Shown: positions 6,412-17,853 of the stretch, piece after piece
How the letters are laid out: every line of letters begins with the position of its first letter
How positions within the stretch are numbered: the stretch's first letter is position 1
Source: Williamsia muralis NBRC 105860
GTDB taxonomy: Bacteria > Actinomycetota > Actinomycetes > Mycobacteriales > Mycobacteriaceae
Direction: 5' to 3'
Assembly (NCBI RefSeq): GCF_001598915.1
Contig: NZ_BDAP01000005.1
Location: 372,001 to 436,000 of the forward strand
DNA length: 64,000 nucleotides
Program-made: the position numbers and the translations under genes
The notes under the pieces: model-generated
The model's input: only the letters and a program-made list of their open reading frames with translations
What the model was told of the DNA's origin: nothing
The model's database searches: none

Positions 6412-6621
6412 ATGGACGACACCTCGAACCGCGCACCGGATGACCTCAACGACGACGAACTCATCGCATTCATCCACGACCAGACAAAGCTTGCGCAAAT
6501 GGAGTTCGATTCACTTCAAGCAGACGGTGATCGCGCATCCTACGACGACAGAATCGCTCAATTGGACAATGCAAACAAAATCGCCGAGCAGCGTGGACTC
6601 GAGGTTCCGCGGCGCGCTTGA
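6412..6621 (+). CDS. small acidic protein, unknown
   Basis: A 69-residue acidic, helical protein (MDDTSNRAPDDLNDDELIAF at the start). The internal ATG at 6412 is chosen over a longer extension because the longer N-terminus has no conserved look and overlaps the probable leader. Family not recognised. Confidence 0.45.
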   Translation: MDDTSNRAPDDLNDDELIAFIHDQTKLAQMEFDSLQADGDRASYDDRIAQLDNANKIAEQRGLEVPRRA

Positions 6622-6730
6622 TCGGTCGGAGTTCGATTTCCGGTGAGTTGCGAAATGATTCGCAATCGACCCATCCAGTCACATAGTTGAGTCGAACCAC
6701 TGGTGCTGGGAGATCCCCCGACCCTTCCGG

Positions 6731-6770
6731 CACAGATGCCCCCTGGCTCACGCCAAGGGGCATTTCTGTG
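6731..6770 (-). terminator. stem-loop downstream of the CAT tRNA
   Basis: Inverted repeat CACAGATGCCCC...GGGGCATTTCTGTG with a 12-14 base loop. It lies just beyond the 3' end of the leftward tRNA and after the rightward small gene, so it could end transcription from both sides. Confidence 0.6.
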
Positions 6771-6774
6771 TCCG

Positions 6775-6851
6775 TGGTGGGGCGGGCGGGGCTCGAACCC
6801 GCGACCAATGGATTATGAGTCCACGGCTCTAACCAACTGAGCTACCGCCCC
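6775..6851 (-). tRNA. tRNA with anticodon CAT (tRNA-Ile2 or elongator tRNA-Met), CCA encoded
   Basis: The complement folds as a standard cloverleaf: acceptor GGGGCGG/CCGCCCC, anticodon stem GTGGA/TCCAT around loop CTCATAA, T loop TTCGAGC, discriminator A, and a genomically encoded CCA. The anticodon is CAT and the acceptor is paired at position 1, so it is not the initiator. Tallying determinants by eye I lean towards tRNA-Ile2 (TTGGTCGC variable/T-arm entry as in E. coli ileX), but elongator Met is not excluded. Confidence 0.9.
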
Positions 6852-6953
6852 GAGGCTGCGTCATCGACGCAGCGAACGTGCTGATGCTACCGAGCCGCGC
6901 CGATCACGTCGTACTCGACCCGCCGCGGGTCCCGCCGACGCGACCCTTGGATA

Positions 6954-6997
6954 CAAAAGAGCCCAGGCGGTCCGGCGAAAACCGGTCTACCTGGGCT
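6954..6997 (-). terminator. original terminator of tRNA-Asn, now separated from the gene by the element
   Basis: Arms AGCCCAGG (6960-6967) and CCTGGGCT (6990-6997) enclose an inner CCGG/CCGG pairing. Read leftwards, a T-run (CTCTTTTGT) follows. It lies directly beyond the residual 3' fragment of tRNA-Asn at 7002-7033. I infer that it ended tRNA-Asn transcription before the element inserted. Confidence 0.65.
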
Positions 6998-7001
6998 TAT
7001 C

Positions 7002-7033
7002 TGCTCCCCCAACTGGACTCGAACCAGTAACCG
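7002..7033. repeat. attL core, residual 3' end of tRNA-Asn
   Basis: Identical over 32 bases to 17338-17369, from TGCTCCCCCAACTGG to CCAGTAACCG. It corresponds to the T-arm and acceptor 3' strand of tRNA-Asn. The tRNA's anticodon and D arms are absent here, so this is a remnant and not a gene. Confidence 0.92.
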
Positions 7034-7106
7034 GTCGTGCTCTGTGAAGTTGGGTCCTACCTTGGCGTTCAGGGCCTCTACCTGGACACAAGTGAAACAG
7101 TAGCCG

Positions 7107-7143
7107 CTGAGGTAAGCGGAGGCAAGCGGAACCTGAGGTAAGC
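7107..7143. repeat. short direct repeats between attL and integrase
   Basis: Three imperfect copies of GG(T/C)AAGC(G/T)GA begin at 7111, 7121 and 7137; two belong to an 11-bp exact repeat CTGAGGTAAGC at 7107 and 7133. Their position just outside the integrase start suits excisionase, repressor or integrase-arm binding. Which protein binds is unknown. Confidence 0.5.
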
Positions 7144-7147
7144 TGAT

Positions 7148-7165
7148 CTGGCACATATCTGGCAC
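7148..7165 (+). promoter_or_regulatory. left pair of integrase arm-type-like sites
   Basis: CTGGCAC occurs at 7148-7154 and 7159-7165, an 11-bp spacing, within the repeated ATCTGGCAC. The same heptamer pair with the same 11-bp spacing is found beside attR at 17271-17288, which is what paired arm sites of a bivalent tyrosine integrase should look like. Confidence 0.5.
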
Positions 7166-7182
7166 GCAACGAAGGGTCACTG

Positions 7183-8298
7183 ATGGCTAGTCGGCGCGGC
7201 TTCGGCAATATCCGCCGCCTACCGTCCGGCCGGTATCAAGCTCGGTACACCGGGCCGGATGGCGCCGAACACAAGGCGCCCCAAACGTTCGGGGCGAAGA
7301 TCGACGCTGAAGCGTGGCTCGGTGACCGCCGGCGAGAGATTGACCGCAACCTGTGGAACCCGGTGACGGCCGACAAGCGTGCGGCGCCGCTATTCAACGA
7401 GTACGCCGACGAATGGCTAAACTCTCGCACGGTACGAGGTCGGCCCTTGAAGACACGCACCAGCGACCACTACCGCGAGCTGCTCGACCGACATATCCTG
7501 CCGGAGTTCGGAGACTCCGAACTCGATGCGATCACCCCGGCGATGGTGCGGCAGTGGCACGCTCACCTCTTGCCGACTAAGCCAACGATGAGGGCGCACG
7601 CCTACTCGCTTCTCCGAACGATCATGACGTCAGCAGTCAACGCGGAGCATGCCGACGCTAACCCGTGTCGAGTCGAGGGCGCGGGCTCCGCTGGACGTGT
7701 GTCTCGGACTACCCCGGCCACCGTCGAAGAATTGCTGACGATCGCAGAGGAGATGCCGAATCGACTTCGCTTGATGGTGCTGCTCGCCGGCTGGTGCGCT
7801 CTGCGGTACGGCGAGCTGATCGAATTGCGGCGAAAGGATATCGACCTCAAAGAGGGCACGATATCGGTAACCCGTGCTGCTATCCGCAGAGCTGATGGTC
7901 AGTACGTCGTGACGAGTCCGAAGTCGGAGGCCGGCACGCGAGTGGTGTACATGCCACCCCACCTGATCCCGATGGCTACCGAGCACATGGCCGAACATGT
8001 CGCCGCGGGACGTGACGCGTTGTTGTTCGAAGCGGGCAACGGAGGATATCTGACCCCGACGTCCCTGTACCGCCACTACTATCCAGCCCGCCGCGCAGCC
8101 GATCGCGACGACCTCAGGTTTCACGACCTGCGGCACACCGGCGCGGTGCTCGCCGCGGTCACAGGTGCGACGCTCGCTGAACTTCAACAAAGGCTTGGAC
8201 ACTCAACCGTCGCAGCCGCAATGCGCTACCAGCATGCCGCCAAGGGCCGTGACAAGAAGATCGCCGAGGCATTATCCCGACTCATAGAGGAGAGCTGA
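7183..8298 (+). CDS. int: tyrosine recombinase integrase
   Basis: A 371-residue phage-type integrase. Residues 1-60 form an AP2-like arm-binding domain, about 65-165 an SAM-like core-binding domain, and 175-365 the catalytic domain. The active-site set is complete: Arg208 (CALRYGEL), Lys247 (SPKSEAGTR), His314-Arg317 (HDLRHTG), His340 (LGHST) and Tyr349 (MRYQHA). GAAGGG lies six bases before the ATG. It sits beside attL and faces into the element, and should catalyse integration at, and excision from, the tRNA-Asn 3' end. Confidence 0.96.
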   Translation: MASRRGFGNIRRLPSGRYQARYTGPDGAEHKAPQTFGAKIDAEAWLGDRRREIDRNLWNPVTADKRAAPLFNEYADEWLNSRTVRGRPLKTRTSDHYRELLDRHILPEFGDSELDAITPAMVRQWHAHLLPTKPTMRAHAYSLLRTIMTSAVNAEHADANPCRVEGAGSAGRVSRTTPATVEELLTIAEEMPNRLRLMVLLAGWCALRYGELIELRRKDIDLKEGTISVTRAAIRRADGQYVVTSPKSEAGTRVVYMPPHLIPMATEHMAEHVAAGRDALLFEAGNGGYLTPTSLYRHYYPARRAADRDDLRFHDLRHTGAVLAAVTGATLAELQQRLGHSTVAAAMRYQHAAKGRDKKIAEALSRLIEES

Positions 8299-8301
8299 AC
8301 C

Positions 8302-8742
8302 ATGATCGAAAAGACCCGTAGGGATGTCGTGGTGAAGTGTTCGCACGGTGCGCGTGGCGGACACGCCGATTTTGCTGAACGGTTTCGATGGATGTCCAGT
8401 CAAGCGGTATGGGCGCCGACAGTCAGCGGTATCACTCAGATGACATCACTGCGCGGCGACGAAGTTGATGATGTGTTCGACCCCAGACTGTCCGGCCCTA
8501 TCAGGCATCATTACGCCGTGAAATGCCAGAAGTGCCCAAACTCTGTTTCTATCAGAGAAGAAGTGTTGCAACAGATTTGCGTGATGCTGACGGGGTGGTC
8601 CGACTATGCCGGTCCTCCCAACCAGTATCGCCAAACATTCGCGATGCTAGCGACCCACAATGATGACGCGTCGGTGACGATAACCCTCGATGGCCTTCGG
8701 GCATCGCTGCAACTTCACAATGACATGCTCGACCAACACTGA
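8302..8742 (+). CDS. unknown protein with possible zinc-binding Cys/His cluster
   Basis: A 146-residue protein starting three bases after the integrase stop, with GAGGAG ahead of it, so probably co-transcribed with int. Cys13-His15 (KCSHG) and Cys75/Cys78 (KCQKCPN) could form one zinc site. The C-terminal half is helical. I do not recognise the family; its position suggests a partner in recombination or immunity, but this is a guess. Confidence 0.7.
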   Translation: MIEKTRRDVVVKCSHGARGGHADFAERFRWMSSQAVWAPTVSGITQMTSLRGDEVDDVFDPRLSGPIRHHYAVKCQKCPNSVSIREEVLQQICVMLTGWSDYAGPPNQYRQTFAMLATHNDDASVTITLDGLRASLQLHNDMLDQH

Positions 8743-8827
8743 AGATCGCACCTTTTCGCGGAATCTCGTGCTAAGTTAGCAGTAGCGGTACTCGTCGCTT
8801 TCATTGACGTGCATCAGCCTCCTTTCT

Positions 8828-8845
8828 CTCGGATGCGAGTCCGAG
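8828..8845. promoter_or_regulatory. small inverted repeat in the leader of the early operon
   Basis: CTCGGA-TGCGAG-TCCGAG lies 25 bases before the excisionase-like gene, in the 128-bp gap that probably carries the early promoter. It could be an operator or a leader hairpin. No clear -35/-10 pair could be fixed. Confidence 0.35.
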
Positions 8846-8870
8846 GGCTGAAGCACGCCTGGAGGCATGC

Positions 8871-9065
8871 ATGTCCAGACCATCCGTTCCGCGTCGATAT
8901 GTTTCGATAGCGGACGCTGCCGAGTATCTCGGTGTCACCGATCGCACAGTCCGCCAGATGATCGCAGACGGACGACTCACCGGTTACCGCAATGGGACGC
9001 GCCTAATACGCCTCGACCTTAATCAGGTTGACGCAGCCATGACCCCATTCGGCGGTGCCGCATGA
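8871..9065 (+). CDS. excisionase-like helix-turn-helix DNA-binding protein
   Basis: A 64-residue protein that is almost entirely one MerR/excisionase-type winged helix: YVSIADAAEYLGVTDRTVRQ then MIADGRLTGYRNGTRLIRLD. GGAGG lies six bases before the ATG. Small proteins of this kind act as recombination directionality factors or activators (Xis/AlpA-like). It is the first gene of the overlapping chain up to 12699. Confidence 0.85.
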   Translation: MSRPSVPRRYVSIADAAEYLGVTDRTVRQMIADGRLTGYRNGTRLIRLDLNQVDAAMTPFGGAA

Positions 9066-9244
9066 GCGCCGCGAATTGGGAACTGGCACAGGCGGATCTA
9101 ATCGCCGGCGGTCCGTCGACTCACCCGGCCGAACGCTTGATCTTCCGCCTGGACGCCGTGCAGCGCATGTACGAGATTGAGCGTCACGCTGACCTTCAGC
9201 TTGCACCTACAGACCTCAACCTGGTCGGCGGTGACACCGCATGA
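9062..9244 (+). CDS. small protein, unknown
   Basis: A 60-residue protein overlapping the HTH gene by ATGA, so its translation is probably coupled. No motif recognised. The coupling and its location between the HTH gene and the primase support a real gene. Confidence 0.65.
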   Translation: MSAANWELAQADLIAGGPSTHPAERLIFRLDAVQRMYEIERHADLQLAPTDLNLVGGDTA

Positions 9245-9513
9245 CCGGCCGTAGAATTGGCGCCGCCCCCGGCCGAGGAACCAGGGGCGAGCGGGCGAAC
9301 AGCAGGGCAGCCGTCTGGACTCATCTTAACGCGCCCACCGAAGTCCTCACGGTAGACGAGCGCAGAGAACGCGATCTAGTTGCTGAGTTGCATGACCGCG
9401 GCTACCGGATCGCCGTGCGCTGCCGCACATGCGGGTCATGGTTGGCGGCACCGAAGTCCGTCGAATCATTCCAGGGTCCGGTGTGCCGTCGCCGCGAAGG
9501 TGGTGCGAAATGA
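9241..9513 (+). CDS. small zinc-ribbon-like protein, unknown
   Basis: A 90-residue protein with a basic N-terminus and a C-terminal CRTCGSWL...GPVCRR motif that could hold one zinc ion with three cysteines and another ligand. It overlaps the upstream gene (ATGA) and the primase gene (ATGA). Small Cys-rich proteins like this are common before replication genes in actinophages; its role is unknown. Confidence 0.65.
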   Translation: MTGRRIGAAPGRGTRGERANSRAAVWTHLNAPTEVLTVDERRERDLVAELHDRGYRIAVRCRTCGSWLAAPKSVESFQGPVCRRREGGAK

Positions 9514-11531
9514 CGGCATACGACCGCGTGATCGACGCGTTCCGTTCCGAAGGCCTGACCGTCATCGACAACGGTCACGGCAAGGCCCAGGCGCAGGCAC
9601 CCGGCCACTCCCCCGCTGACCGCTCGGTCTCGATTACCCAGATCGCCGGCCAAGTTTTGATGCACTCCCATTCGGACCCGACCGCCAATGTTCTCGACAC
9701 CCTCGGGCTGACTATGGCGGATCTGTTCGACGACAAGCGTGGGACCGTCTACGACTACCCAGACGGTCGGAAGGTTTTTCGATCGGTCGACAAGACGTTC
9801 CGTCAGTCGGGAAATACGAAGGGTCGCAACCTTTTCCACGTCGATCGCATCGGTGACGCTGAGACGGTCTACTACGTGGAAGGCGAGAAGGATGTCCTGG
9901 CCGCCGAATCAGTCGGCGCGGTCGCAGTGTGCAACGCCGCCGGGGCCGGCAAGTCCCACCTGTTCGACCTAACACCCCTTCACGGCAAACGGGTGGTGAT
10001 CGTCGCGGACAAAGATGGACCGGGCCGCAAACACGCCCAGCAAGTCGCCGAACAGCTCGACGGTAAAGCAGAGTGGTACATCGTCGAATCCGTCGTCGGC
10101 AAAGACATGGCCGATCATGTTGCCGCCGGGAAGCAGTTGTCGGAGTTGGTAGCCCAGCGGCCACCGGGCCGATACCTGAAGGTCACCCGCGGGTCTCAAG
10201 TGAAGACGAGCGTGGTCGATTGGCTGATCGAGGACTGGATACCGCGTGGCGCGCTGACACTGCTCGCCGGCCGTGAAGGTCTCGGTAAGTCGACGATCGC
10301 GTGTGAGTGGTCAGCGTGGCTGACCCGGCAAGGGTTCACGATCATGTACCTGCACACCGAAGACAGCCGGGAACATACCGTCGCACCGCGATTACTCGCC
10401 GCCGGTGCCGACATGGACAAGGTGTTGTTCGTCGACGTGCAGACCGAGACCAGCGACACCGGAACAATCACCCTGCCGCTCGACAACCACCAGCTCGAAA
10501 AGGTCATCGAAGCCGAGGGCGTGAAGTTCATGGTGCTCGATGCCGCGACTAGTTCGATGTCGGCAGAATTGTCGGGCAAAGATGACCGGCAGGTCCGGCA
10601 GTTCCTTGAACCGCTCTCTCAGATGGCCGCACGACAGAACATGGTCGTGCTCGGGCTGGTGCACTTCGGTAAGCGCGACGGTGCCGACAGCGGGAAGCTG
10701 ATCCTCGGTTCGATCGCGTGGTCTCAGGTCGCCCGTTCGGTGCTCTCAGTCGCCTATGACGAGGACGACGAGCGGTTGGTGGTCACCAACACCAAAGGCA
10801 ACCTCGCCAAGCGTGTGCGGTCTGAAGCGTGCCGGGTGGTGTCCAAGTCGGTCGTCACCGATACCGGCGCCACTGAAGTCGGTGTGATCGATTGGCTTGG
10901 TGAAACGACTCAAGATGCCCGCACGATTTTGTCGGGGTCAGGTGAAGACCAAAGCGACCGCGACGACGTCGATGCGTGGCTGACTGAACTACTCCGGGCC
11001 GGCCGGATCAAAGCGACCGAGGTCTATTCGGCCGCCGACGCCGCCGGCCACTCCAAAGACAAAGCCAAAAACGCGAAGAAGCGTCTCGGTGTCATTGCGG
11101 TGAAAGACGTGGCGTGGTGGTGGTCGCTCCCCATCCAAGGGAGTCAAGGGAGCAAGGAAGGGAGTCATACACAAAATGAGACTCCCTTGCTCCCTTCCAG
11201 GTCAGAAGGGGTGTCCGATACTCCCTTGGATTCAGTCAAGGGAGCAAGGGAGTCAAGGGAGCAAGGGAGCGTGCATGACTCCCTTGACACTCCCTTGCCT
11301 GTAGAACCATCCGCGCTCGTGTTCGACGGCACTCCCCCGGCGACTCGATTCGCGACCGCATGCACCGAGTGCGGTGAAGCTCTGACCGCTCACAACATCA
11401 CTGGCCTGTGCTTGGAATGCAAGCTCGCCCAGACAGTGCCGCCCATCGGTGACGTCACCGAAAACACTCCAGGAATGACACCGCGGGTGTTGGAGATTCT
11501 GGCCCGCGTCAACAGCAAGGAAGCGTCATGA
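9510..11531 (+). CDS. primase-helicase: TOPRIM domain fused to RecA-like (AAA_25) ATPase
   Basis: A 673-residue replication protein. An N-terminal primase-like part carries a TOPRIM fold: Glu124 in YYVEGEKD and Asp167/Asp169 in VVIVADKDGPG. A RecA-like helicase follows, with Walker A GREGLGKST (254-262), Walker B VKFMVLDAA and LGLVHFGKRDG. A winged-helix-like part comes next, then a low-complexity linker (about 543-596) and a C-terminal CTEC...CLEC zinc finger (Cys618-637). The ATG at 9510 overlaps the previous stop by 4 bp, which decides the start. It should drive replication of the excised element. The linker DNA holds the heptamer array at 11137-11296. Confidence 0.9.
   Translation: MTAYDRVIDAFRSEGLTVIDNGHGKAQAQAPGHSPADRSVSITQIAGQVLMHSHSDPTANVLDTLGLTMADLFDDKRGTVYDYPDGRKVFRSVDKTFRQSGNTKGRNLFHVDRIGDAETVYYVEGEKDVLAAESVGAVAVCNAAGAGKSHLFDLTPLHGKRVVIVADKDGPGRKHAQQVAEQLDGKAEWYIVESVVGKDMADHVAAGKQLSELVAQRPPGRYLKVTRGSQVKTSVVDWLIEDWIPRGALTLLAGREGLGKSTIACEWSAWLTRQGFTIMYLHTEDSREHTVAPRLLAAGADMDKVLFVDVQTETSDTGTITLPLDNHQLEKVIEAEGVKFMVLDAATSSMSAELSGKDDRQVRQFLEPLSQMAARQNMVVLGLVHFGKRDGADSGKLILGSIAWSQVARSVLSVAYDEDDERLVVTNTKGNLAKRVRSEACRVVSKSVVTDTGATEVGVIDWLGETTQDARTILSGSGEDQSDRDDVDAWLTELLRAGRIKATEVYSAADAAGHSKDKAKNAKKRLGVIAVKDVAWWWSLPIQGSQGSKEGSHTQNETPLLPSRSEGVSDTPLDSVKGARESREQGSVHDSLDTPLPVEPSALVFDGTPPATRFATACTECGEALTAHNITGLCLECKLAQTVPPIGDVTENTPGMTPRVLEILARVNSKEAS
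11137..11296. repeat. twelve-copy AAGGGAG iteron-like array in both orientations, candidate replication origin
   Basis: AAGGGAG on the plus strand starts at 11137, 11146, 11158, 11238, 11246, 11255 and 11263. Its complement CTCCCTT starts at 11182, 11190, 11221, 11279 and 11290. Many copies are 8-9 bp apart, alternating as GGGAGTCAA and GGGAGCAA, and the opposing groups can pair as imperfect hairpins. The array falls in the low-complexity linker of the primase-helicase. Iterons recognised by an adjacent Rep/primase are the rule in PICIs and many plasmids, so an origin is the favoured reading. Confidence 0.7.
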
Positions 11532-11767
11532 ACTTCATCTCTAACGCCGACGAACGCCGCGCCGCTGAGTGGGTCGCAGCTCGCCTGGCCGGTGACCACG
11601 ACAAGATAATTCGACTGGAAGCCGAAGGGCATATCAACCCACTATCGGTGTATCGAACGATGGAAGTCGCGGCCGCCGAATACTGGTTGATACGGGACGA
11701 AGCACTCGCCCGCGTCGAAGCCCACATCGAACAGTTGATCTTCACCGAGCAAGGTCTCGACGAATGA
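11528..11767 (+). CDS. small helical protein, unknown
   Basis: A 79-residue acidic helical protein, joined to the primase gene by an ATGA overlap and to the next gene in the same way. No motif recognised. Coupled translation argues that it is expressed with the replication genes. Confidence 0.65.
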   Translation: MNFISNADERRAAEWVAARLAGDHDKIIRLEAEGHINPLSVYRTMEVAAAEYWLIRDEALARVEAHIEQLIFTEQGLDE

Positions 11768-11940
11768 CGGTCAAAGCCTCGAACAACGACCGTCTCGCCC
11801 GCCGGCTCTGGAACCTGGCACACCGCGCCGGCCACGGTGACCTCGACGAGCGGGAAACCAACGCGCTGCACGCCTACCTCGATCACTACCAGGCGACCGT
11901 CCGCGAATGGCGCGCCGGCACAAACCCAAAGCCATCATGA
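11764..11940 (+). CDS. small protein, unknown
   Basis: A 58-residue protein read from the ATGA overlap at 11764 (begins MTVKASNNDRLARRLWNLAH, ends TNPKPS). It is helical and moderately basic. Its exact fit between two 4-bp overlaps is the main evidence. Confidence 0.6.
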   Translation: MTVKASNNDRLARRLWNLAHRAGHGDLDERETNALHAYLDHYQATVREWRAGTNPKPS

Positions 11941-12074
11941 TGACCCGGCGAATCTTCTCCAGCGTCGCCGGGTGGATCGAGATACCCGAAGACAACACCG
12001 GGCGGTGGGACGGCACCCACGCCCCGGCCAACACACCCGAGTCTGACGACTACCCGAAGGACCACCCGAAATGA
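11937..12074 (+). CDS. small protein, unknown
   Basis: A 45-residue protein from ATG 11937 (MMTRRIFSSVAGWIEIPEDN) ending just inside the next gene. Both ends are ATGA overlaps, continuing the coupled chain. The C-terminus is rich in Asp, Pro and Lys. No family recognised. Confidence 0.55.
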   Translation: MMTRRIFSSVAGWIEIPEDNTGRWDGTHAPANTPESDDYPKDHPK

Positions 12075-12310
12075 CAACCGATCACCGCGCCCTAGAAAAC
12101 CGCGCCGCCGCTGCGCGCCTTCTCATCCACCGACTCAGCGATGACCACATCGGCATCGAAGAGTCCTACCGCACTGCACCGCACCGCATCATCGAGTTGA
12201 TCGGACCGACGCAGGACTTGCTAGCCGAACTCGTTGTCGACCAGGAGCGGCTTATCGAGCGACTACGCCACGATCTGGCCGTGACCACGCTGCGATTGGA
12301 AAGCGAATGA
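12071..12310 (+). CDS. small helical protein, unknown
   Basis: A 79-residue protein with a likely coiled-coil C-terminal half (AELVVDQERLIERLRHDLAV). ATGA overlaps join it to both neighbours. No function can be assigned. Confidence 0.62.
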   Translation: MTTDHRALENRAAAARLLIHRLSDDHIGIEESYRTAPHRIIELIGPTQDLLAELVVDQERLIERLRHDLAVTTLRLESE

Positions 12311-12699
12311 TCAGCTCAGTGCAGGGAACCCTGCTCACCGACGACGACGCGAAATATCTGCTCGCCGCCATCGATTCCATGGTTGCTGCCCTGGGACGAC
12401 ACGGCCAAGCACCTTCGCCACGATTGGCCGCGACGACCGACCGACTACGCAAAACTGTTGCAGCCGCCAGCGATTCGCGGTCAATCGCCAGTGAACACGC
12501 CAGAAATGCAGGCGGCGAATGGTTTTCGGACGACGATAGCCCCTATGCGATCACCTCACCCAGTGAAGCCGCGAAAATCCTCGGCATCACACCCAACGGT
12601 GTCCGAGACCTTGCGCGCCGCGGAGCACTACCGGCGCGACGCTCAGGCGGCCGATGGTTCATATCTGCCGCTGCCGTTATGGAACGCGCTCGCCACTGA
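12307..12699 (+). CDS. helix-turn-helix protein preceding the capsid genes
   Basis: A 130-residue protein. The N-terminal half is helical (LLTDDDAKYLLAAIDSMV). Residues 80-130 form a MerR/excisionase-type winged helix: SPSEAAKILGITPNGVRDLA then RRGALPARRSGGRWFISAAA. It is the last gene of the coupled chain and sits 26 bp before the capsid protease. It may activate the late module. The wing also resembles lambda Nu1-type small terminases, so a DNA-packaging specificity factor is a second possibility. Confidence 0.75.
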   Translation: MISSVQGTLLTDDDAKYLLAAIDSMVAALGRHGQAPSPRLAATTDRLRKTVAAASDSRSIASEHARNAGGEWFSDDDSPYAITSPSEAAKILGITPNGVRDLARRGALPARRSGGRWFISAAAVMERARH

Positions 12700-12725
12700 C
12701 GCCGACGTGTCCGGGTCTGCCGCCC

Positions 12726-13271
12726 ATGGTTAGGACCCGGACGCTACGCGACGTCGAACTGATCAAAGTCGGTTCATGGGACATCAGCACCGGCAGTTGG
12801 GCGGTGACCGCGGGTGACCTCGAATCGGCGGTCGCCGCCCATCACGCCGGCGTACTGAGAAAACCGCCCCTCAAACTCGGTCACATCGACGACAGGTTCG
12901 ACGGGCAACCGTCGTTCGGTCACATCGACGACGTGCGTGTAGCCGAAGACGGAGCGACCTTGGTCGGCGACCTGGTAGTGCCGGAATGGCTTGCCGCGTC
13001 GATCCCGGTGCACTGGCCTGACCGATCAGTTGAAGCGCTCAAGAACTTTGAAGCCGCGGACGGAACCATGTGGCCGCTCGTGTTGACCGGCCTAGCGCTA
13101 CTGGGTGCGACCGCACCGGGAATCGACACCCTTCGCCAGCTTCATGACCCAGTGGCAGCGTCCCGGATCACGTTACGCCCGGGCGCGCACCCGCAACCCT
13201 TAACCGGCACCCGCGATCGCGCAGTGCTCATCGCAGCGGCACGGCGCCGCCGCACCCACAGAAAGGTTTGA
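12726..13271 (+). CDS. capsid maturation protease, Mu gpI-like N-terminal domain
   Basis: A 181-residue protein matching the Mu protease I pattern: PPLKLGHIDD (His53), FGHIDDVRV, then PDRSVE (Ser101) and LVLTGLALLGATAPGI. His53 and Ser101 are the likely catalytic residues. In Mu-like phages a scaffold region follows within the same protein; here the protein ends soon after the protease domain with a basic tail, and a matching scaffold-like segment is encoded separately at 14578. It would process the head during assembly. Confidence 0.8.
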   Translation: MVRTRTLRDVELIKVGSWDISTGSWAVTAGDLESAVAAHHAGVLRKPPLKLGHIDDRFDGQPSFGHIDDVRVAEDGATLVGDLVVPEWLAASIPVHWPDRSVEALKNFEAADGTMWPLVLTGLALLGATAPGIDTLRQLHDPVAASRITLRPGAHPQPLTGTRDRAVLIAAARRRRTHRKV

Positions 13272-13275
13272 CCCC

Positions 13276-13659
13276 ATGTCCACATCGCTCTCAAACGTCT
13301 CGGTCTATGCACCGGGCGCCGACATCACCGCCCAGGCAACCGGCACCATCGTCGCCCGGACATTCGTGGCTATCAGCGGCAACCGGGCGGCCGGTGGGAA
13401 CATCAGCGTCGCCACAGCCACCGCCGGCGGCCGCGTTGCAGGAGTAGCCAAGAACGACGCCGCCACCGGCGAACTCGTGTCCCTGGCCCGCGGCAACTCC
13501 CGCGTCGTCAAGGTCACCGCAGACGGCGCCATCGCCTTCGGCGTCGAGGTCGAAGTCGGCGCCGCCGGCAAAGCCAAAACCAAAACTAGCGGCGTCGCAG
13601 TCGGCTACGCCGTCACCGGCGCCACCTCCGGCGCTGACGCCGAAATCTCCCTCTACTGA
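13276..13659 (+). CDS. capsid decoration/stabilisation protein (DUF2190-like)
   Basis: A 127-residue beta-rich, Ala/Gly/Thr-rich protein lying between protease and major capsid genes, the usual place of head decoration proteins. The repeated short beta motifs (GRVAGVAKNDAATGELVSLA) resemble the DUF2190 capsid-stabilising family. GAAAGG lies nine bases before the ATG. Confidence 0.72.
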   Translation: MSTSLSNVSVYAPGADITAQATGTIVARTFVAISGNRAAGGNISVATATAGGRVAGVAKNDAATGELVSLARGNSRVVKVTADGAIAFGVEVEVGAAGKAKTKTSGVAVGYAVTGATSGADAEISLY

Positions 13660-13675
13660 AAAGGACTGACATCTC

Positions 13676-14554
13676 ATGGTTAACGCTCTGATCCCCGAAC
13701 TGTCCGGCCGGCGCCTTACCGTCGACACGGCACTCAAGTCGCCTACCGTCATCCGCAACCAAATCGCTCGGCTCGCCGACGAACAAATCCTGCTGCCGAA
13801 GTTCTTCCACAACCACGGCGCCCCGGTCGAAGGCGGTGGCCTGCTCTACAGCGTCATTCAGGCATCCGACTTCTACGTGAGCACCGACCTCGAAAAGCGT
13901 TCGCCCCTCTCGGAGTACAAGGTCGTCGAAGGTGTCGACCCGGAACCGAAACTCGCACCCGTCGAAGACTGGGGTGGGAAGTTCCAGGTCTCGGACGAAC
14001 AGATCAGCCGCAACGATGTCAGCTACCTCGACCAGCAGACCACTCAGTTGGCGAACACCATCGCCCGCAAGCTCGATCAGGCCGCGATCCTAGCGATTAC
14101 AACCGCGGTCACCGGCGACAACATCGTCACCGGCCACGACTGGGACGGGCTGGTGTTTGTCGGCCCCGAAGCCAACCTGACGGTTTCAGCCAACCGACCC
14201 ACCGCCGACCTATCCGCCGCGCAACTCGCCTCCGACCTGCAAGAGATGGGTATCACTCACGATCTGCTCGTCGTTCACCCCAACCAGGCGCATGCACTGC
14301 GGGTTGCCTACGGCGATGGACTCGATGACATGCTCAAGTCAGCAGGCGTCGGACTCTTCTCCAATCCCCGCATCGCCTCCGGCACCGCATGGGCAATCAA
14401 GTCCGGGGAAGTCGGCACGGTTGGGTTTGAGAAGCCGCTGACCATCGACAGTTGGGACGACCGCAGCACCCGAAGCCGGTGGATCCAGGCCTATTGCGTG
14501 CCGGCGTTCGCAGTCGACAAGCCTTACGCCGCCAAGAAAATCACCGGACTCTGA
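13676..14554 (+). CDS. major capsid protein, HK97-like fold
   Basis: A 292-residue protein with the features of actinophage major capsid proteins: an N-terminal PTVIRNQIARLADEQILLPK helix, an E-loop-like SDFYVSTDLEKRSPLSEYKV segment, the DQAAILAITTAV spine helix, and a C-terminal IQAYCVPAFAVDKPYA strand. AAAAGGA precedes the ATG by nine bases. It should form the element's own icosahedral head. The order protease, decoration, capsid is typical of phages. Confidence 0.85.
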   Translation: MVNALIPELSGRRLTVDTALKSPTVIRNQIARLADEQILLPKFFHNHGAPVEGGGLLYSVIQASDFYVSTDLEKRSPLSEYKVVEGVDPEPKLAPVEDWGGKFQVSDEQISRNDVSYLDQQTTQLANTIARKLDQAAILAITTAVTGDNIVTGHDWDGLVFVGPEANLTVSANRPTADLSAAQLASDLQEMGITHDLLVVHPNQAHALRVAYGDGLDDMLKSAGVGLFSNPRIASGTAWAIKSGEVGTVGFEKPLTIDSWDDRSTRSRWIQAYCVPAFAVDKPYAAKKITGL

Positions 14555-14577
14555 CCCGGAAAGGGATGACAACCACC

Positions 14578-15081
14578 ATGTCCGAAACCACTGGAACACT
14601 CATCATGGCGGCCAAGGGCGCCGACGCCCCCCGCTTCGAGTTCACGGCCGACCAAACCAACAAGTTACTCGAACTGCTAGGCCTTTCACCCGACGACCCG
14701 AGCATCGACGTCGCAACCATCCTCACCGTCATCGAGGACATGTCGAAGGCAAGTGCCGGTGACCCGATCGCCGCCGCAAAGAAAGCCGGACTCACGACGA
14801 TCGACCCCGAGTCGCTGACCCACCTCCAAGCCGAAGCGCAGAAGGGTCGCGACCTCATCGCCGCATCCGCCCGCCGCGAAGTCGAAGACAAAGTCGACAC
14901 CGCCATCAAGGCAGGCAAGATTCCACCCGCCCGCAAAGGCCACTGGATCACGCTGGTCACCAACGACGGCGCACTCGGCGAAGTTCTCGCGTCCATGCCC
15001 GCCAACGTGCTCCCCGTAGCCGAAATCGGACACTCAGGCGGCGCCGAGGACGCCGCAGAACCCGCAGAATGGTTCCGCTGA
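14578..15081 (+). CDS. scaffold-like protein, matches C-terminal part of Mu gpI-type proteases
   Basis: A 167-residue acidic helical protein. Residues about 100-130 (REVEDKVDTAIKAGKIPPAR then KGHWITLVTND) follow the conserved C-terminal signature of Mu I-like protease/scaffold proteins. Encoding it apart from the protease, after the major capsid gene, is unusual. The ATG at 14578 is preferred because GGAAAGGG abuts an in-frame ATG at 14566 with no spacing. It probably acts as the inner scaffold or a capsid-size determinant; this is inferred from the motif only. Confidence 0.6.
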   Translation: MSETTGTLIMAAKGADAPRFEFTADQTNKLLELLGLSPDDPSIDVATILTVIEDMSKASAGDPIAAAKKAGLTTIDPESLTHLQAEAQKGRDLIAASARREVEDKVDTAIKAGKIPPARKGHWITLVTNDGALGEVLASMPANVLPVAEIGHSGGAEDAAEPAEWFR

Positions 15082-15244
15082 CCACCCGCTAAAACACCCC
15101 GAAAACCTCGGCGTCAAGCCCACCCCGGCCAGGTTCATTCAGCCTGGCGCAGGGGAAGTATGGCCGGAGAGTTGGCAAACGAAGAGCGCACGGCAACGTC
15201 GCGCCCCTCCTTTCCACCAACGATGACCCGACCAGCGCCGAACC

Positions 15245-15280
15245 AGAACACCCCCGAGCAACATGCGCCGGGGGTGTTCT
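15245..15280. terminator. stem-loop after the capsid operon
   Basis: Perfect 11-bp arms AGAACACCCCC and GGGGGTGTTCT around a 14-base loop. No T-run follows. It lies 160 bp after the last capsid-module gene. Confidence 0.6.
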
Positions 15281-15413
15281 GCTGTCAACAAGAAGGCAGC
15301 AACAGCCGCCATGACCCCCACCATCAACCACGTCAAACGAGGTCGATCACAGGCCACTCAGGACCGATCAACGAGCGCGGAAAGTGCCCTCGGAAAAATC
15401 CACACCCCGCCCC

Positions 15414-15445
15414 CGCCTGACTCCGTTGCCCAGTCAGGCGTTTTC
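15414..15445 (+). terminator. rho-independent terminator of the capsid operon
   Basis: Perfect 9-bp arms CGCCTGACT and AGTCAGGCG around a 9-base loop, followed by TTTTCTCTCC. Confidence 0.75.
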
Positions 15446-15634
15446 TCTCCCCGGGGTTTTTCCCAGATCATTTTCGCCATCGTCGCAGGTCAGAGCGTTG
15501 TCGGTTGTTAACGATCCGTCGCTCTCATGCTTGTCGATTGCCGGTTCTGGCCCTAGAACTGGCGAGAACTGGTGTTTTCGAGGGATTTTGACCCGTTTTG
15601 AGGCCGGTTTTGAGGGTGTTGATCGGACCCGAAA

Positions 15635-15651
15635 CTAGGTCATTGACCTAG
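15635..15651. promoter_or_regulatory. 17-bp palindrome at the end of the right-end operon
   Basis: CTAGGTCA-T-TGACCTAG is a perfect 8+1+8 palindrome that overlaps the stop codon of the leftward gene at 15648. It is short for a terminator and has the size of an operator for a dimeric repressor. No second copy was noticed in the element. Confidence 0.4.
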
Positions 15652-16220
15652 AGGTTGTCGTCGTCGCGTTGCAGTGTGTGATTTGCACGCGGGGATAGTT
15701 CCTCGAGTTTTTTCGTCCGGCGCACATGCTTGGGAATGTCGACGGTCGGCATGACGGACGGCGGAAAGAGGCCCTCGGACGGCAGTTGATCGAACTCGAA
15801 TCGAACCGTCTTTCTGAGCCATCGTTTCGGGCTCGGTGACCATGTCACGATGAGCGCTTCGCCGCCCTCCAGGGGCTTGGGCACACCAACCGTGAGGCGT
15901 ACCGTGTCGCCCGCTCGGACCACCGCCAGCCGGTGTGACCACAGTGGTGGTGCGCCTTCCAGGATGTCTGCGCGGCTCGGCACAACGGCGTCGCATCCCG
16001 ACCCATAGAGCCTCACATCGAAGGCGTCGCCGTCGCCAATATTGATAAGTGAGGCGTGCGCGGTCACTCTGCCGGCCGAGCTGAGATGTTCGTCGAATGT
16101 CGGCGACAGGCGGCCTTCGAGGCGCAGGACGGCGCGTGGTCGGTCGAACCATCGAATCGCGACAGTCACTGCCGCCGACACTCCCGCGGCGATCGGGACG
16201 ATTTGATACCAGTCGGTCAC
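15648..16220 (-). CDS. membrane-anchored protein with beta-rich domain, unknown
   Basis: A 190-residue protein with one N-terminal membrane helix (IVPIAAGVSAAVTVAIRW), then a predicted beta-sandwich (VTAHASLINIGDGDAFDVRL onward) and a basic, polar C-terminal tail. It lies 21 bp after the previous leftward gene, in the operon next to attR, where lysogenic-conversion or exclusion genes often sit. I do not recognise the family. A superinfection-exclusion or anti-phage role is speculation. Confidence 0.65.
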   Translation of the reverse strand: MTDWYQIVPIAAGVSAAVTVAIRWFDRPRAVLRLEGRLSPTFDEHLSSAGRVTAHASLINIGDGDAFDVRLYGSGCDAVVPSRADILEGAPPLWSHRLAVVRAGDTVRLTVGVPKPLEGGEALIVTWSPSPKRWLRKTVRFEFDQLPSEGLFPPSVMPTVDIPKHVRRTKKLEELSPRANHTLQRDDDNL

Positions 16221-16241
16221 GACCTGATCTTCGCAGGAAGT

Positions 16242-16640
16242 TCAGAGGACCGGCTTGCCTAGCCGGCCGTGGTGCATGTCGTCTTCGAGTTTGTCGCGAT
16301 CGATCCGGGTCTCGGGGTAGATCATTGCGTGCCGGGTGCGTTCGTCGCATTCGTCGCACGTTGCCAAGCACACCATTCGGTCGTACTCCGTTTCCATCGA
16401 CCGGAGGTGCGCGGGTTTGCGTTGCTGGTGCGCCCAGTGGCCAGGGAGCTTACCGGTCGCTGTTTGGGGCTCACCTGTGGGCGAGTAGCCGTTACTTGGG
16501 GTGTAATCACTGAGAGTGCCGGCCAGGGCACCCGAGTGCCGACCAGCCACGCGCTTGCGATTCAGATGCCGCAGCGATCCGCAGACACAGCAGAGGGCCT
16601 GCATGTGTCGAGTGGAATCGAAGGGGATTTTCTTCTTCAT
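16242..16640 (-). CDS. Cys-rich putative zinc-binding protein, unknown
   Basis: A 132-residue basic protein with an N-terminal LCCVCG cluster (Cys17, 18, 20) and a second cluster CLATCDEC (Cys91, 95, 98), enough for a split zinc ribbon. GAAAGG lies seven bases before the ATG. It heads a two-gene unit with the membrane protein. It may be a small regulator or an inhibitor of a helper-phage function; no specific family is recognised. Confidence 0.65.
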   Translation of the reverse strand: MKKKIPFDSTRHMQALCCVCGSLRHLNRKRVAGRHSGALAGTLSDYTPSNGYSPTGEPQTATGKLPGHWAHQQRKPAHLRSMETEYDRMVCLATCDECDERTRHAMIYPETRIDRDKLEDDMHHGRLGKPVL

Positions 16641-16918
16641 GGTGTGACCTTTCAGTGATTGTCGTTGGACACCTACCGGTGACCCTGATCTTGATGACCC
16701 CCCATGGCCCTAGCCCATTTTTCCGCTGACCGTCTGTCATCCCACGACCGCTAGACCGTCCGGCACGGGGCCAGAAGGTTTCACGGTATGACCCAGGTCC
16801 GTCAATGATCAGTCGATGGTTGGGCGCGCCACCCGGTTGTGACGCCTTGCGCTGTCAGCACTTACCGGCCGGCGCTGGTTATGGTCGGGCGCCGGTAGAA
16901 GAACGACGGTGCGAGCCT
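16641..16918. other. 278-bp gap between the two leftward gene pairs
   Basis: No coding frame. It probably holds the promoter of the 16640 gene on its left side. Near 16863-16897 an imperfect GC-rich inverted repeat (TACCGG..GGCGC / GCGCCGGTA) may end transcription of the 16919 gene. No confident -35/-10 was found. Confidence 0.4.
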
Positions 16919-17107
16919 CTACAAGGCGTGTCTGGTGACGATCTGGTCGTAGGTGCGATCGTCGATGGGGTCGAATGACCAATTACCGGTGATCGCGTGA
17001 CAGGTGTCCGCGATACCGGTGATGTCGTAGTTGGTGGCTGGTGCGAGACCGGCGGTGGCGATGTCGCGAATGATTTGTTGTTCGGCGTCGTCGCGGGTGC
17101 GGATCAT
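16919..17107 (-). CDS. small protein, unknown
   Basis: A 62-residue protein starting MIRTRDDAEQQIIRDIATAG and containing NYDITGIADTCHAITGNW. The ATG at 17107 overlaps the previous stop by 4 bp (ATGA), which decides the start over a longer frame. Small proteins of this look occur in actinophage genomes; function unknown. Confidence 0.65.
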   Translation of the reverse strand: MIRTRDDAEQQIIRDIATAGLAPATNYDITGIADTCHAITGNWSFDPIDDRTYDQIVTRHAL

Positions 17108-17238
17108 GCTGCCCACCCCATTGCGACGAACAGGGTGCATGTGCCGACGAACAGGCCGTACATCGCCGTGAGGAAGAGTGCCACGGCCATGACCGCGGCC
17201 AATGGCGTGAGAATTATGTCGGATCGGTTGGGATGCAT
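17104..17238 (-). CDS. small membrane protein, unknown
   Basis: A 44-residue protein (MHPNRSDIILTPLAAVMAVA onward) with one or two membrane helices of about 30 hydrophobic residues. It is the first leftward gene next to attR and is coupled by ATGA to the 62-residue gene. Too short for family recognition. Confidence 0.55.
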   Translation of the reverse strand: MHPNRSDIILTPLAAVMAVALFLTAMYGLFVGTCTLFVAMGWAA

Positions 17239-17270
17239 GCCGAATCGCTTTCGGTCGTGCACGCCGATCA

Positions 17271-17288
17271 CTGGCACGTTTCTGGCAT
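17271..17288 (+). promoter_or_regulatory. right pair of integrase arm-type-like sites
   Basis: CTGGCAC at 17271-17277 and CTGGCAT at 17282-17288, again 11 bp apart and in the same orientation as the pair at 7148-7165. Confidence 0.5.
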
Positions 17289-17304
17289 GCCATGCCATCT
17301 GGGA

Positions 17305-17334
17305 AACAAAAAACCCGCTGTGAGCAGCGGGTTT
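17305..17334 (-). terminator. element-encoded terminator for tRNA-Asn
   Basis: Perfect 10-bp arms AAACCCGCTG (17311-17320) and CAGCGGGTTT (17325-17334) with a 4-base loop. Read leftwards they follow the tRNA 3' end by five bases, and a T-run (TTTTTTG) comes after. It lies inside the element, replacing the host terminator now stranded at 6954-6997. Confidence 0.8.
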
Positions 17335-17337
17335 ACT

Positions 17338-17369
17338 TGCTCCCCCAACTGGACTCGAACCAGTAACCG
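17338..17369. repeat. attR core within intact tRNA-Asn
   Basis: Second copy of the 32-bp repeat, here forming the 3' part of the complete tRNA-Asn. The element therefore restores a full tRNA at this end. Confidence 0.92.
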
Positions 17370-17412
17370 TCCGATTAACAGTCGGAAGCTCTGCCAATTG
17401 AGCTATGGGGGA
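17340..17412 (-). tRNA. tRNA-Asn (anticodon GTT)
   Basis: The 73-base complement folds correctly: acceptor TCCCCCA/TGGGGGA, D arm GCTC/GAGC, anticodon stem TCCGA/TCGGA with loop CTGTTAA, T arm ACTGG/CCAGT, discriminator G. CCA is not encoded in full. It is the integration target of the element and lies beside the Rv2342-like gene and dnaG, as asnT does in mycobacteria. Confidence 0.96.
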
Positions 17413-17598
17413 ATATCTGGCGCGAGCGCCGAACAATGACTTTAGCCTACAGGTGCGGGCACATGCCAAATCGCCTGCTCGCGGGGCGTCCGACCAGGCA
17501 AGTTCCGCGTGCGCCGACCACATCAGGCAGGATGGGGCGAGCAATCGCGAACACGGCGCCGTGTTCGCCCGTCACCTGCACTGGAGGCAAGACTTCCT

Positions 17599-17844
17599 AT
17601 GGTTCGATTCCTCGCCGCTGTCAGCGTCGGTTACGTCCTCGGGGCGAAAGCCGGTCGCAAGCGCTACGAGCAGATCAATCGCGCCTACCGCACCGTCGCC
17701 GCATCGCCCGCCACCAAGAAGGCTGTGGACGTGGGCAGGCAGAAGTTGTCGGAGAAGCTCAGCACCCAGCCCAAACTCACCGAGTTGCGTGAGATCGACG
17801 ACACCACCACCGTGTTGGGCCCCGATGAGGTCCGCAACAACTGA
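17599..17844 (+). CDS. conserved actinobacterial small protein, Rv2342-like
   Basis: An 81-residue protein with a hydrophobic N-terminus MVRFLAAVSVGYVLGAKAGR followed by RKRYEQI, and a C-terminal EIDDTTTVLGPDE. This pattern is conserved in mycobacteria next to dnaG (Rv2342). CTGGAGG lies about 12 bases before the ATG. The N-terminal glycine-rich hydrophobic segment suggests membrane association. Function unknown. It converges with dnaG. Confidence 0.75.
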   Translation: MVRFLAAVSVGYVLGAKAGRKRYEQINRAYRTVAASPATKKAVDVGRQKLSEKLSTQPKLTELREIDDTTTVLGPDEVRNN

Positions 17845-17853
17845 CCCAACCGG

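Follow-up and report, generated by a model that had tools for sequence, protein, structure and literature searches.

A probable phage satellite of a conserved kind, with its own capsid genes, in a tRNA-Asn gene of Williamsia muralis

In a survey of Mycobacterium, elements combining an integrase with a major capsid protein were listed as candidate PICIs, phiRv1 and phiRv2 among them; in the accessible text of that survey, these candidates use tRNA attachment sites in the case of tyrosine integrases, carry helicase and scaffold genes in some cases and have no demonstrated helper (PMC10654092). They are defined by integrase and capsid only, and a terminase is reported in some. The capsid-forming PICIs covered in the available part of PMC10690885 encode their own capsid protein and protease and take the tail from the helper, but their genes also include those for portal, connectors and the two terminase subunits; the Streptomyces satellites MulchRoom and MiniFlayer, in the same text, are actinobacterial and have capsid genes of their own. 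Among the cos-type SaPIs, packaged through cos, SaPIbov5 carries a capsid-protein homologue, Ccm, that joins helper shells (PMC8569155, accessible part). Finally, two full phages, Gordonia phage Schnabeltier and Mycobacteroides abscessus phage phiT46-1, share the capsid family phrog_1650 and a decoration protein with the locus described here, as well as the cos build that its candidate packaging site would imply, but their protease and scaffold form one ORF, directly 3' of the portal gene and 5' of the capsid gene.

Here, we describe a mobile element of 10.3 kb, inserted in a tRNA-Asn gene of Williamsia muralis NBRC 105860 (positions 7002-17369 of the window, that is, of the whole stretch of 64,000 nucleotides analyzed). 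It pairs an integrase with a major capsid protein as the Mycobacterium candidates do, but its host is Williamsia; unlike the capsid-forming PICIs, it has no portal, connector or terminase subunit gene that we could find, and it is set apart from SaPIbov5, by description only, in adding decoration, protease and scaffold genes (phiRv1 and phiRv2 are likened to it by description only as well). The original prediction saw in it a distinct hijacking strategy. A shell of its own without packaging motor, portal or tail is what the locus encodes, but novelty as a class is not fully supported, given that integrase-plus-capsid candidates already figure in the accessible part of PMC10654092. What goes beyond both is a signature HTH gene (HTH130), a single capsid lineage, a protease/scaffold in two parts and the presence of phage cos sequence in sisters of the element; the accessible survey text contains no mention that we found of HTH130, the split or cos copying.

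Borders and gene content of the element

The element is flanked by a direct repeat of 41 nt (6993-7033 and 17329-17369, 93% identity) with an exact 32-nt core (7002-7033 and 17338-17369, spaced 10,336 bp apart). In a genus-mate (G005, locus L007), the tRNA-Asn gene is uninterrupted, and both window flanks align to this empty site at 97%, the alignments overlapping by 41 nt. Together, the tRNA-Asn att repeats and the empty site provide the specific attachment site named for PICIs in the accessible part of PMC6092414. An Rfam scan of the window returned two tRNAs and nothing else. The ORFs of the element were searched against Pfam and PHROGs, with the following features (coordinates, strand, description):

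7002..7033, no strand: attL, exact 32-nt core of the 41-nt repeat 6993-7033 (repeat search and empty-site alignment)
7183..8298, plus: tyrosine integrase, 371 aa (PF00589 1e-19, phrog_1 2e-64)
8302..8742, plus: 146-aa protein, function not assigned (37% identical counterpart in the Gordonia otitidis element)
8871..9065, plus: small HTH_17 protein, excisionase-like (PF12728 1e-8)
9062..9513, plus: two small ORFs, 9062-9244 and 9241-9513 (in the second, four cysteines and a DUF6011 match below threshold)
9510..11531, plus: primase-helicase, Toprim and AAA_25 (PF13481 1e-28, phrog_239 1e-33)
11136..11290, no strand: iteron-like repeats within the primase-helicase gene, in its 3' part (repeat search)
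11528..11767, plus: 79-aa ORF, function not assigned (from the ORF list; Pfam and PHROGs searched)
12071..12310, plus: 79-aa ORF, function not assigned (similar small genes 5' of HTH130 in Williamsia relatives, judged by eye)
12307..12699, plus: HTH130, 130 aa, helical N-terminal part and C-terminal winged HTH (PF12728 3e-11)
12726..13271, plus, start codon inferred: head maturation protease, N-terminal part (phrog_3894 positions 3-171 of 458, 7e-54)
13276..13659, plus: decoration (cement) protein (phrog_673 4e-21, PF09956 5e-6)
13676..14554, plus: major capsid protein, 292 aa (phrog_1650 2e-53, PF25209 1e-18)
14566..15081, plus: scaffold, the C-terminal part of the phage protease/scaffold protein (phrog_3894 positions 340-438 of 458, 5e-15; PF10123 8e-5, below its cut-off)
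15416..15438, no strand: cos-like palindrome CCTGAC-N11-GTCAGG (sole match of the second cos rule on both window strands)
15648..16220, minus: accessory 190-aa protein, N-terminus hydrophobic by eye (tblastx 3e-41 to L011)
16242..16640, minus: accessory 132-aa ORF with cysteine pairs (PF19836 below cut-off)
16919..17107, minus: accessory 62-aa ORF (PF20650 below cut-off)
17338..17369, no strand: attR core within tRNA-Asn(gtt), 17339-17412, minus strand

The predicted genes, namely, integrase, xis-like HTH, primase-helicase, protease, decoration protein, major capsid protein and scaffold, were all recovered, but the prediction had left out the three minus-strand ORFs and mentioned neither the HTH_17 protein at 12307-12699 nor the palindrome at 15416-15438. 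Judging from its fold and place, the protein at 8871-9065 probably acts as an excisionase, and the iteron-like repeats at 11136-11290 are a possible replication origin. In the capsid block, the PHROGs matches run in the order phrog_3894 (protease N-part), 673 (decoration), 1650 (major head) and 3894 again (protease/scaffold C-part). Protease and scaffold, predicted as separate proteins, are therefore both present, but as two parts of one phage protein with the decoration and capsid genes lying between them. The capsid genes are of phage origin (42% identity to Schnabeltier); a search for plasmid relatives of the capsid protein found none. Among the accessory genes, 15648-16220 had no match in Pfam or PADLOC and has a conserved counterpart in the element of Gordonia otitidis (L011); the tblastx matches were otherwise mostly due to chance.

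No ORF of the element that was searched against Pfam and PHROGs matched a terminase, portal, tail or lysis family (some small ORFs were covered by one of the two databases), in agreement with what had been predicted, and the element lacks the gene set of a complete prophage. Searches of the whole genome with the Schnabeltier terminase, PF03354, phrog_2 and the Schnabeltier portal found neither a split prophage that might hold the missing genes nor a helper prophage. The portal query works elsewhere, as 37 other genomes yielded portals in 5 cases, while phrog_2 is a weak test that missed several terminases of this family's phage-type loci. When 37 genomes were searched whole with these last two queries, there was no match at satellite coordinates, a result to which phrog_2 adds little. 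An ORF set drawn from 20 sister elements (98 ORFs) is an incomplete control, since its overlap filter kept 13 of 20 capsid genes (and 19 integrases) and could have lost a terminase likewise.

HTH130 and the cos-like palindrome

We compared 50 capsid-gene loci, of which 37 had no terminase, portal and tail matches (satellite-type) and 13 were phage-type. HTH130 lies 5' of the capsid gene in 36 of the 37 satellite-type loci (a contig end truncates one) versus none of the 13 phage-type loci, and a search of 50,697 phage records gave no match to it; the PICI features in the accessible part of PMC6092414 include genes found in this class of elements alone, and HTH130 is such a gene. It is a simple marker for spotting these elements in genomes. 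The same text names, as further PICI features, a replication origin whose iterons adjoin the replication gene, induction that depends on a phage, interference and transfer at high frequency. Iteron-like arrays were found in 14/37 satellite-type and 1/13 phage-type loci.

The palindrome at 15416-15438 is a candidate packaging site, the putative cos of the element. Lying between converging gene sets and able to form a 9-bp hairpin (-14.3 kcal/mol) with TTTTC after it, the palindrome may instead be a transcription terminator; packaging specificity would then come from HTH130 as a small terminase subunit acting at another site. HTH130 indeed matches phrog_57 (terminase small subunit) in 11 of 12 members. 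However, this match is limited to the winged HTH, which matches excisionases (phrog_66, 12/12) equally well and also matches the defence-library regulator mad1 (PADLOC, 1e-7). When the HTH130 profile was compared with terminase small subunits from five related phages, the probability was 0.7%, so that a helper-type small subunit finds no support. Against the terminator, a hairpin-forming site of the same kind in sister element L099 coincides with a phage genome end. We regard this alternative as unlikely. Most likely, HTH130 controls or targets the packaging stage, either by regulating late genes or by acting as an adaptor for packaging; four weak matches of its profile in the PDB were uninformative. 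The terminator scan had a loop limit of 8 and could not list the window hairpin, whose loop is 9.

In L099, the sequence matches the cos region of phiT46-1 as far as the final base of that record, the match spanning the joined record ends, and it also matches copies in prophages, located at the gene for the terminase small subunit. A second sister, L098, carries 285 nt (86%) from prophiGD11-3, from between the HNH endonuclease and the terminase small subunit. A match to a phage genome end is confined to L099; for the window, the likeness to cos-type SaPIs consists of the candidate site alone, which no phage or IMG/VR record carries. The cos rules were formulated after examples had been seen; the joined ends of Schnabeltier and Rem711 fail the second rule, and by either rule a site 3' of the capsid gene was absent in 23 of 41 satellite-type loci. 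Three Williamsia prophage loci, searched as cos donors with a slightly looser rule, gave a single minus-strand match (in L121), and at two IMG/VR pattern matches (L123 and L124), there was no phage or satellite protein.

The shell genes and their conservation across the family

The portals of phiT46-1 and Schnabeltier are 52% identical and their terminases 38%, with a common capsid family (phrog_1650), and the copied cos and the satellite shell therefore point to one family of phage heads. The capsid proteins of L099 and phiT46-1 are only 23% identical, so one cannot take for granted that a helper portal would fit. This low identity also makes mixed shells less likely and bears on an improbable alternative, capsid redirection, in which the satellite capsid protein and scaffold would co-assemble with the helper capsid and alter head size, the DNA entering via cos. 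The capsid-protein homologue of SaPIbov5 occupies pentamers in this way (PMC8569155, accessible part), and the satellite-type loci without a protease by profile (16/37) or a decoration protein (6/37) may lean on helper proteins. On the other hand, with a protease in the window and 20 other loci and a scaffold in 32/37, the family has close to a full shell set.

Among the satellite-type loci with at least 7 kb available on each side, 24 of 24 have the plan with HTH130, and 22/37 satellite-type loci have att-type repeats of at least 22 nt, 8.0 to 10.9 kb apart. Satellites with the same gene block are also present in Mycobacterium and Mycobacteroides. A defective prophage that has lost its terminase, portal, tail and lysis genes is very improbable, even if the capsid genes derive from phages and there is one clear remnant (C4) in the same genome: 37 loci share the plan, their att repeats lie in a number of different tRNA genes, and the scaffold lies 3' of the capsid gene wherever it was found (32/32), an order that differs from that of the phages examined. 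Decay, in particular, is rejected on the basis of the dN/dS values (0.06 to 0.26 across seven gene pairs, indicating purifying selection), the att repeats, the distribution of HTH130 and the capsid clade test, in which holding the satellite capsids together as one clade was not rejected and improved the likelihood. The element is a conserved kind of satellite and not a decaying prophage. As originally proposed, its reading frames are open and its capsid set intact. Its closest relatives share the reduced plan instead of carrying the same capsid genes in a full prophage. A domesticated island, whose capsid genes interfere with phages instead of transferring DNA, is hardly credible: phage interference is a listed PICI feature (PMC6092414, accessible part) and the three minus-strand genes have no assigned function, but the element retains its integrase, its replication gene and its att sites, L081 holds near-identical tandem copies of the element, the phage cos sequence of the sister elements would be of no use, and PADLOC gave no match beyond the winged HTH and one weak match.

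A proposed satellite cycle

We consider it likely that the element is a phage satellite that depends on a helper, builds a shell of its own and recruits the terminase, portal and tail of a helper via a copied cos site. Judging from the sequence, the integrase and the xis-like protein would move it into and out of tRNA-Asn, and the primase-helicase would replicate the excised DNA. With a helper phage present, the satellite capsid protein, scaffold, protease and decoration protein would form a procapsid, to which the helper would contribute terminase, portal, connectors, tail and lysis. The copied cos site (candidate, 15416-15438) would bring satellite DNA to the helper terminase, and HTH130 would govern or target the packaging stage. 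Helper dependence and particles of the element are deductions from sequence; the phage DNA-end sequence carried by sister elements suggests that packing of its DNA and addition of the tail are the work of a helper phage.

More tentatively, and with rather less than even confidence, this may be a shell-only strategy shared by the whole satellite family in Mycobacteriales, with one old capsid lineage from Schnabeltier-like phages, portal and terminase obtained via interchangeable copied cos sites, helpers switched by swapping cos while the shell is kept, and HTH130 as a switch of a new class, for packaging or late genes, replacing a satellite terminase subunit. For instance, L006 and L008, satellites of one Williamsia strain, have a near-identical cos-like site and capsid proteins 38.6% identical to each other, a hint in this direction.

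If true, this would place the element midway between satellites relying on the whole head of the helper and those that borrow the tail alone, thereby closing a gap. A portal would have to fit a shell from a lineage other than its own phage family, making the specificity of head assembly testable. For the integrase-plus-capsid islands of Mycobacterium, it offers a testable mechanism, in which copied cos sequences point to the helper phage families.

Insertion site and gene content

The window is part of contig C5 of a 5.54-Mb genome, and the island of shell genes in it is flanked on both sides by a direct repeat of 41 nt (93% identical) with an exact 32-nt core, the copies lying 10,336 bp apart and the right one being held by tRNA-Asn. 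In a genome of the same genus (G005), the corresponding tRNA-Asn is unbroken, and the two flanks of the element align there at 97%, with an overlap of 41 nt. Since the flanks meet with this overlap in an intact tRNA gene, the pattern in the window is the footprint of a site-specific insertion. At the tRNA-Met/tRNA-Asn pair, locus L007 of G005 has a different satellite in tRNA-Met, while the window (6600-18000) has the present element in tRNA-Asn. A remnant of a second satellite lies elsewhere in the same genome, at about 3.2 to 4.7 kb of contig C4 (L009, C4:3100-4750), with the C-terminal part of a capsid gene (70% identity), a scaffold gene, and an incomplete integrase.

Gene order and sites of the element (window positions)
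7002-17369, whole element, 10.3 kb
Upstream of HTH130, in order: integrase, 146-aa unknown protein, xis-like HTH protein, a pair of small genes, primase-helicase, another pair of small genes
11136-11290, direct and inverted repeats that resemble iterons, inside the primase-helicase gene (3' part)
12307-12699 (+), HTH130, a 130-aa HTH protein
Downstream of HTH130, in order: protease part, decoration protein, major capsid protein, scaffold part
Minus strand, after the scaffold part: three accessory ORFs
15416-15438, palindrome CCTGACTCCGTTGCCCAGTCAGG, preceded by a C-rich stretch

Along phrog_3894 (458 positions), the protease covers positions 3-171 and the scaffold positions 340-438, whereas in phage Schnabeltier a single ORF of 480 aa has two stretches that match this family. 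Thus, one phage protein is split in the element, the protease and the scaffold being its two parts, with the decoration and capsid genes between them.

A family of capsid-gene loci with a common plan

The closest phage capsid protein is that of Gordonia phage Schnabeltier (42% identical; 113 phage records match), and GTDB genomes hold capsid proteins up to 79% identical (11 loci). When 401 genomes of the family were searched with a capsid profile, 58 had matches, in 75 rows; the 40 stretches retrieved, together with our own and the genus loci, cover 46 of these rows, and the remaining 29, mostly weak or partial, are unclassed. We classed 50 loci (the fetched, own, genus, and GTDB loci, minus five duplicates and one remnant) with profiles derived from five phages. 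Matches to terminase, portal, or tail were present in 13 (phage-type; 11 with terminase, 12 with portal) and entirely lacking in the other 37, an absence that defines the satellite type. Independently of this definition, HTH130 was found just upstream of the capsid gene in 36/37 satellite-type and 0/13 phage-type loci. The sole exception (L065) has merely 405 bases upstream of its capsid gene, and HTH130 was present in all 24 satellite-type loci with at least 7 kb of sequence on both sides. HTH130 had no tblastn match among 50,697 phage records at an E value of 1e-3. In all 32 satellite-type loci where a scaffold gene was found, it follows the capsid gene; the decoration protein occurs in 31/37 and the protease in 21/37, protease counts being uninformative on phages because this profile, built from satellites, detects none of the phage proteases.

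Exact direct repeats of at least 22 nt, 8.0 to 10.9 kb apart, surround the capsid gene in 22/37 satellite-type loci, a count that leaves out the tandem repeat of L081. Among the loci scanned for tRNAs, they lie inside genes for tRNA-Asn (the window and L011), -Met (L007), -Ser (L006), -Pro (L013), and -Arg (L017). L081 (G072, C2 92001-112000) contains two tandem satellite copies with a period of 9,257 bp that are >99.98% identical over the block compared, which points to recent activity. In the 5 kb upstream of the capsid gene, short repeat arrays were found in 14/37 satellite-type and 1/13 phage-type loci and never in shuffles. The record NZ_JNYV01000005.1 (L020, contig C5 of G005) bears the label Kitasatospora arboriphila, which is probably wrong, as it falls in the genus of the Williamsia-like genome that holds the window.

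In the capsid tree (38 satellite-type and 18 phage-type rows, 56 in all), the satellite/phage label changes twice, compared with a mean of 15.5 changes in 500 shuffles. The tree with the satellite rows held together had a log-likelihood 9.3 above that of the free quick tree (p-AU, 0.81), and therefore a single origin of the satellite capsids is compatible with the test, which stops short of proving the clade. Across seven gene pairs (one HTH130 pair ending in a partial codon), dN/dS ranged from 0.06 to 0.26; the satellite lineage is maintained by selection.

The element ORFs scanned with Pfam and PHROG matched no family of terminases, portals, tails, or lysis proteins. The whole genome had no match to the Schnabeltier terminase (found in 1/9 genus genomes), the Schnabeltier portal (5/37 other genomes), or PF03354 (2/9 genus genomes). 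It had none to phrog_2 either, a weak test because this profile is positive in 11/14 control genomes but fails to detect terminases in phage-type loci of the same family, e.g., in G366. In 37 complete genome searches, 28 of genomes with satellite-type loci and 9 of genomes with phage-type loci only, no phrog_2 or portal match fell at satellite coordinates. As a partial check free of our own profiles, we scanned 98 ORFs of at least 250 aa from 20 att-bounded sister elements, a set that is incomplete because the filter retained only 13/20 capsid genes; neither the 23 Pfam families nor the 25 of 38 PHROG families listed included one for terminase, portal, tail, or lysis. Two of these 98 ORFs have matches in the Clp protease and other head-protease families, so that the protease module seems to have been exchanged in some satellites. 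In the satellite-type IMG/VR element L097, 263 nt behind the capsid block (6736-6998) resemble the tape measure gene of Che8/Squirty-like mycobacteriophages.

cos-like sites

The joined record ends of phages Schnabeltier and MagicMan, presumably their physical genome ends, read CCTGAC-CGCCGCGGTA|GTCAGG, followed by a T-run. We searched with two pattern rules, and because both were devised after the first examples were known, their figures are descriptive only: rule 1 (CTGAC-N8..13-GTCAG in the 2.5 kb that follow the capsid gene) held in 11/41 satellite-type cases (the 37 loci plus four IMG/VR elements; 0.59 expected from shuffles) and 1/13 phage-type loci (0.22 expected); rule 2 (C-rich, TGAC-N3..14-GTCA, T-rich) held in the same interval in 13/41 and 0/13, with two more elsewhere (L007 and L059) and a background of 0.6 matches per 0.97 Mb of shuffled sequence; and 18/41 satellite-type cases satisfied either rule. 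The joined ends of phiT46-1 satisfy rule 2, but those of Schnabeltier and Rem711 do not, and Juicebox and Nergal have end sequences of other kinds.

Stronger, direct evidence comes from two sister elements. A 96-nt query around the palindrome of L099, an IMG/VR element of 11,496 bp with HTH130, matched Mycobacterium abscessus prophages (93% covered, 85% identity, E value of 3e-19) in a stretch that stops where the terminase small subunit gene begins. In phage phiT46-1, the match extends to the final base of the record, and side by side the satellite sequence continues through the phage end junction. The head of phiT46-1 is of the Schnabeltier type (portal, 52%; terminase, 38%; capsid in phrog_1650), although the capsid proteins of this phage and L099 share only 23% identity. 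L098 shares 285 nt (86%, E value of 2e-88) with prophiGD11-3 and two kin, between the HNH endonuclease and the terminase small subunit; this would be a cos copy by position only, because the ends of prophiGD11-3 are not known and the palindrome spacer there is 4. Two satellites of one strain, L006 and L008, with capsid proteins 38.6% identical, have a nearly identical cos-like site, absent from all others among the nine genus genomes.

The palindrome at 15416-15438 is the sole rule 2 match on both strands of the 64 kb, and it was found in no phage or IMG/VR record searched. Its predicted fold is a 9-bp hairpin of -14.3 kcal/mol, other folded cos-like sites ranging from -6.2 to -10.9 kcal/mol, with L008 at -16.0. 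Since the site sits between converging gene sets, it is possibly a transcription terminator; the terminator scan that left it out is uninformative, its loop limit of 8 being below the loop of this hairpin. On balance, we lean toward the palindrome being the cos of the element.

A motif around CATCGTCGCAGGTCAGAGC (window 15476-15500) is common to mostly intergenic DNA of several phages of Gordonia (Daredevil, Mollymur, and DatBoi), Streptomyces (Joe and kin), Mycobacterium (DrLupo), and Rhodococcus (GuyFagieri and Trina), often less than 1 kb from a genome end. L011 has a shorter form (GCAGGTCA) after its cos-like site, and this form also occurs near the left end of Juicebox.

Proposed working and relation to known satellites

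The element most likely works by making its own shell, its DNA being packaged through cos and the particle tailed by a helper phage, a reading in which we have good confidence. It would be excised by the integrase and the xis-like protein, and replication, perhaps starting at the iteron-like repeats, would be carried out by the element's primase-helicase. The shell would be assembled from its own proteins, 10.3-kb cos-to-cos units would be packaged by the helper terminase via the helper portal, and tail and lysis would come from the helper. HTH130 may turn on the capsid operon or, alternatively, may steer the helper small terminase like Rpp, which directs that subunit in proteobacterial PICIs (PMC10690885). 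The analysis shows the genes, the borders, the absences (within the limits of the searches), the family plan, selection, and the phage genome-end sequence in a sister element; we infer the remaining steps. A Schnabeltier-type portal lies elsewhere in three satellite-bearing genomes, a bare count (G187, 55%; G072, 49%, partial; G075, 31%). The G187 region (C221:569000-574500), which has weak terminase and capsid matches nearby on the same contig, in a genome with a satellite on another contig (C289), is a candidate resident helper.

Mycobacterium regions with an integrase and a capsid gene, phiRv1 and phiRv2 included, are already listed as candidate PICIs in PMC10654092, according to which phage induction was not demonstrated for them. 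For comparison with PICIs, the feature list was taken from PMC6092414. The cf-PICIs carry portal and terminase (PMC10690885), whereas our element has matches to neither, and SaPIbov5 uses its capsid-protein homologue Ccm in helper-derived shells (PMC8569155). Among the papers listed by our literature searches, none was on actinobacterial satellites with a capsid set, without terminase and portal, and with copied cos sites. Because phrog_2 is a weak negative test and rule 2 misses the Schnabeltier ends, our confidence in the mechanism and in the shell-only reading is slightly tempered. We propose only tentatively, at somewhat less than even confidence, that the family may follow a shell-only strategy, switch helpers by swapping cos, and carry in HTH130 a new class of packaging or late-gene switch.
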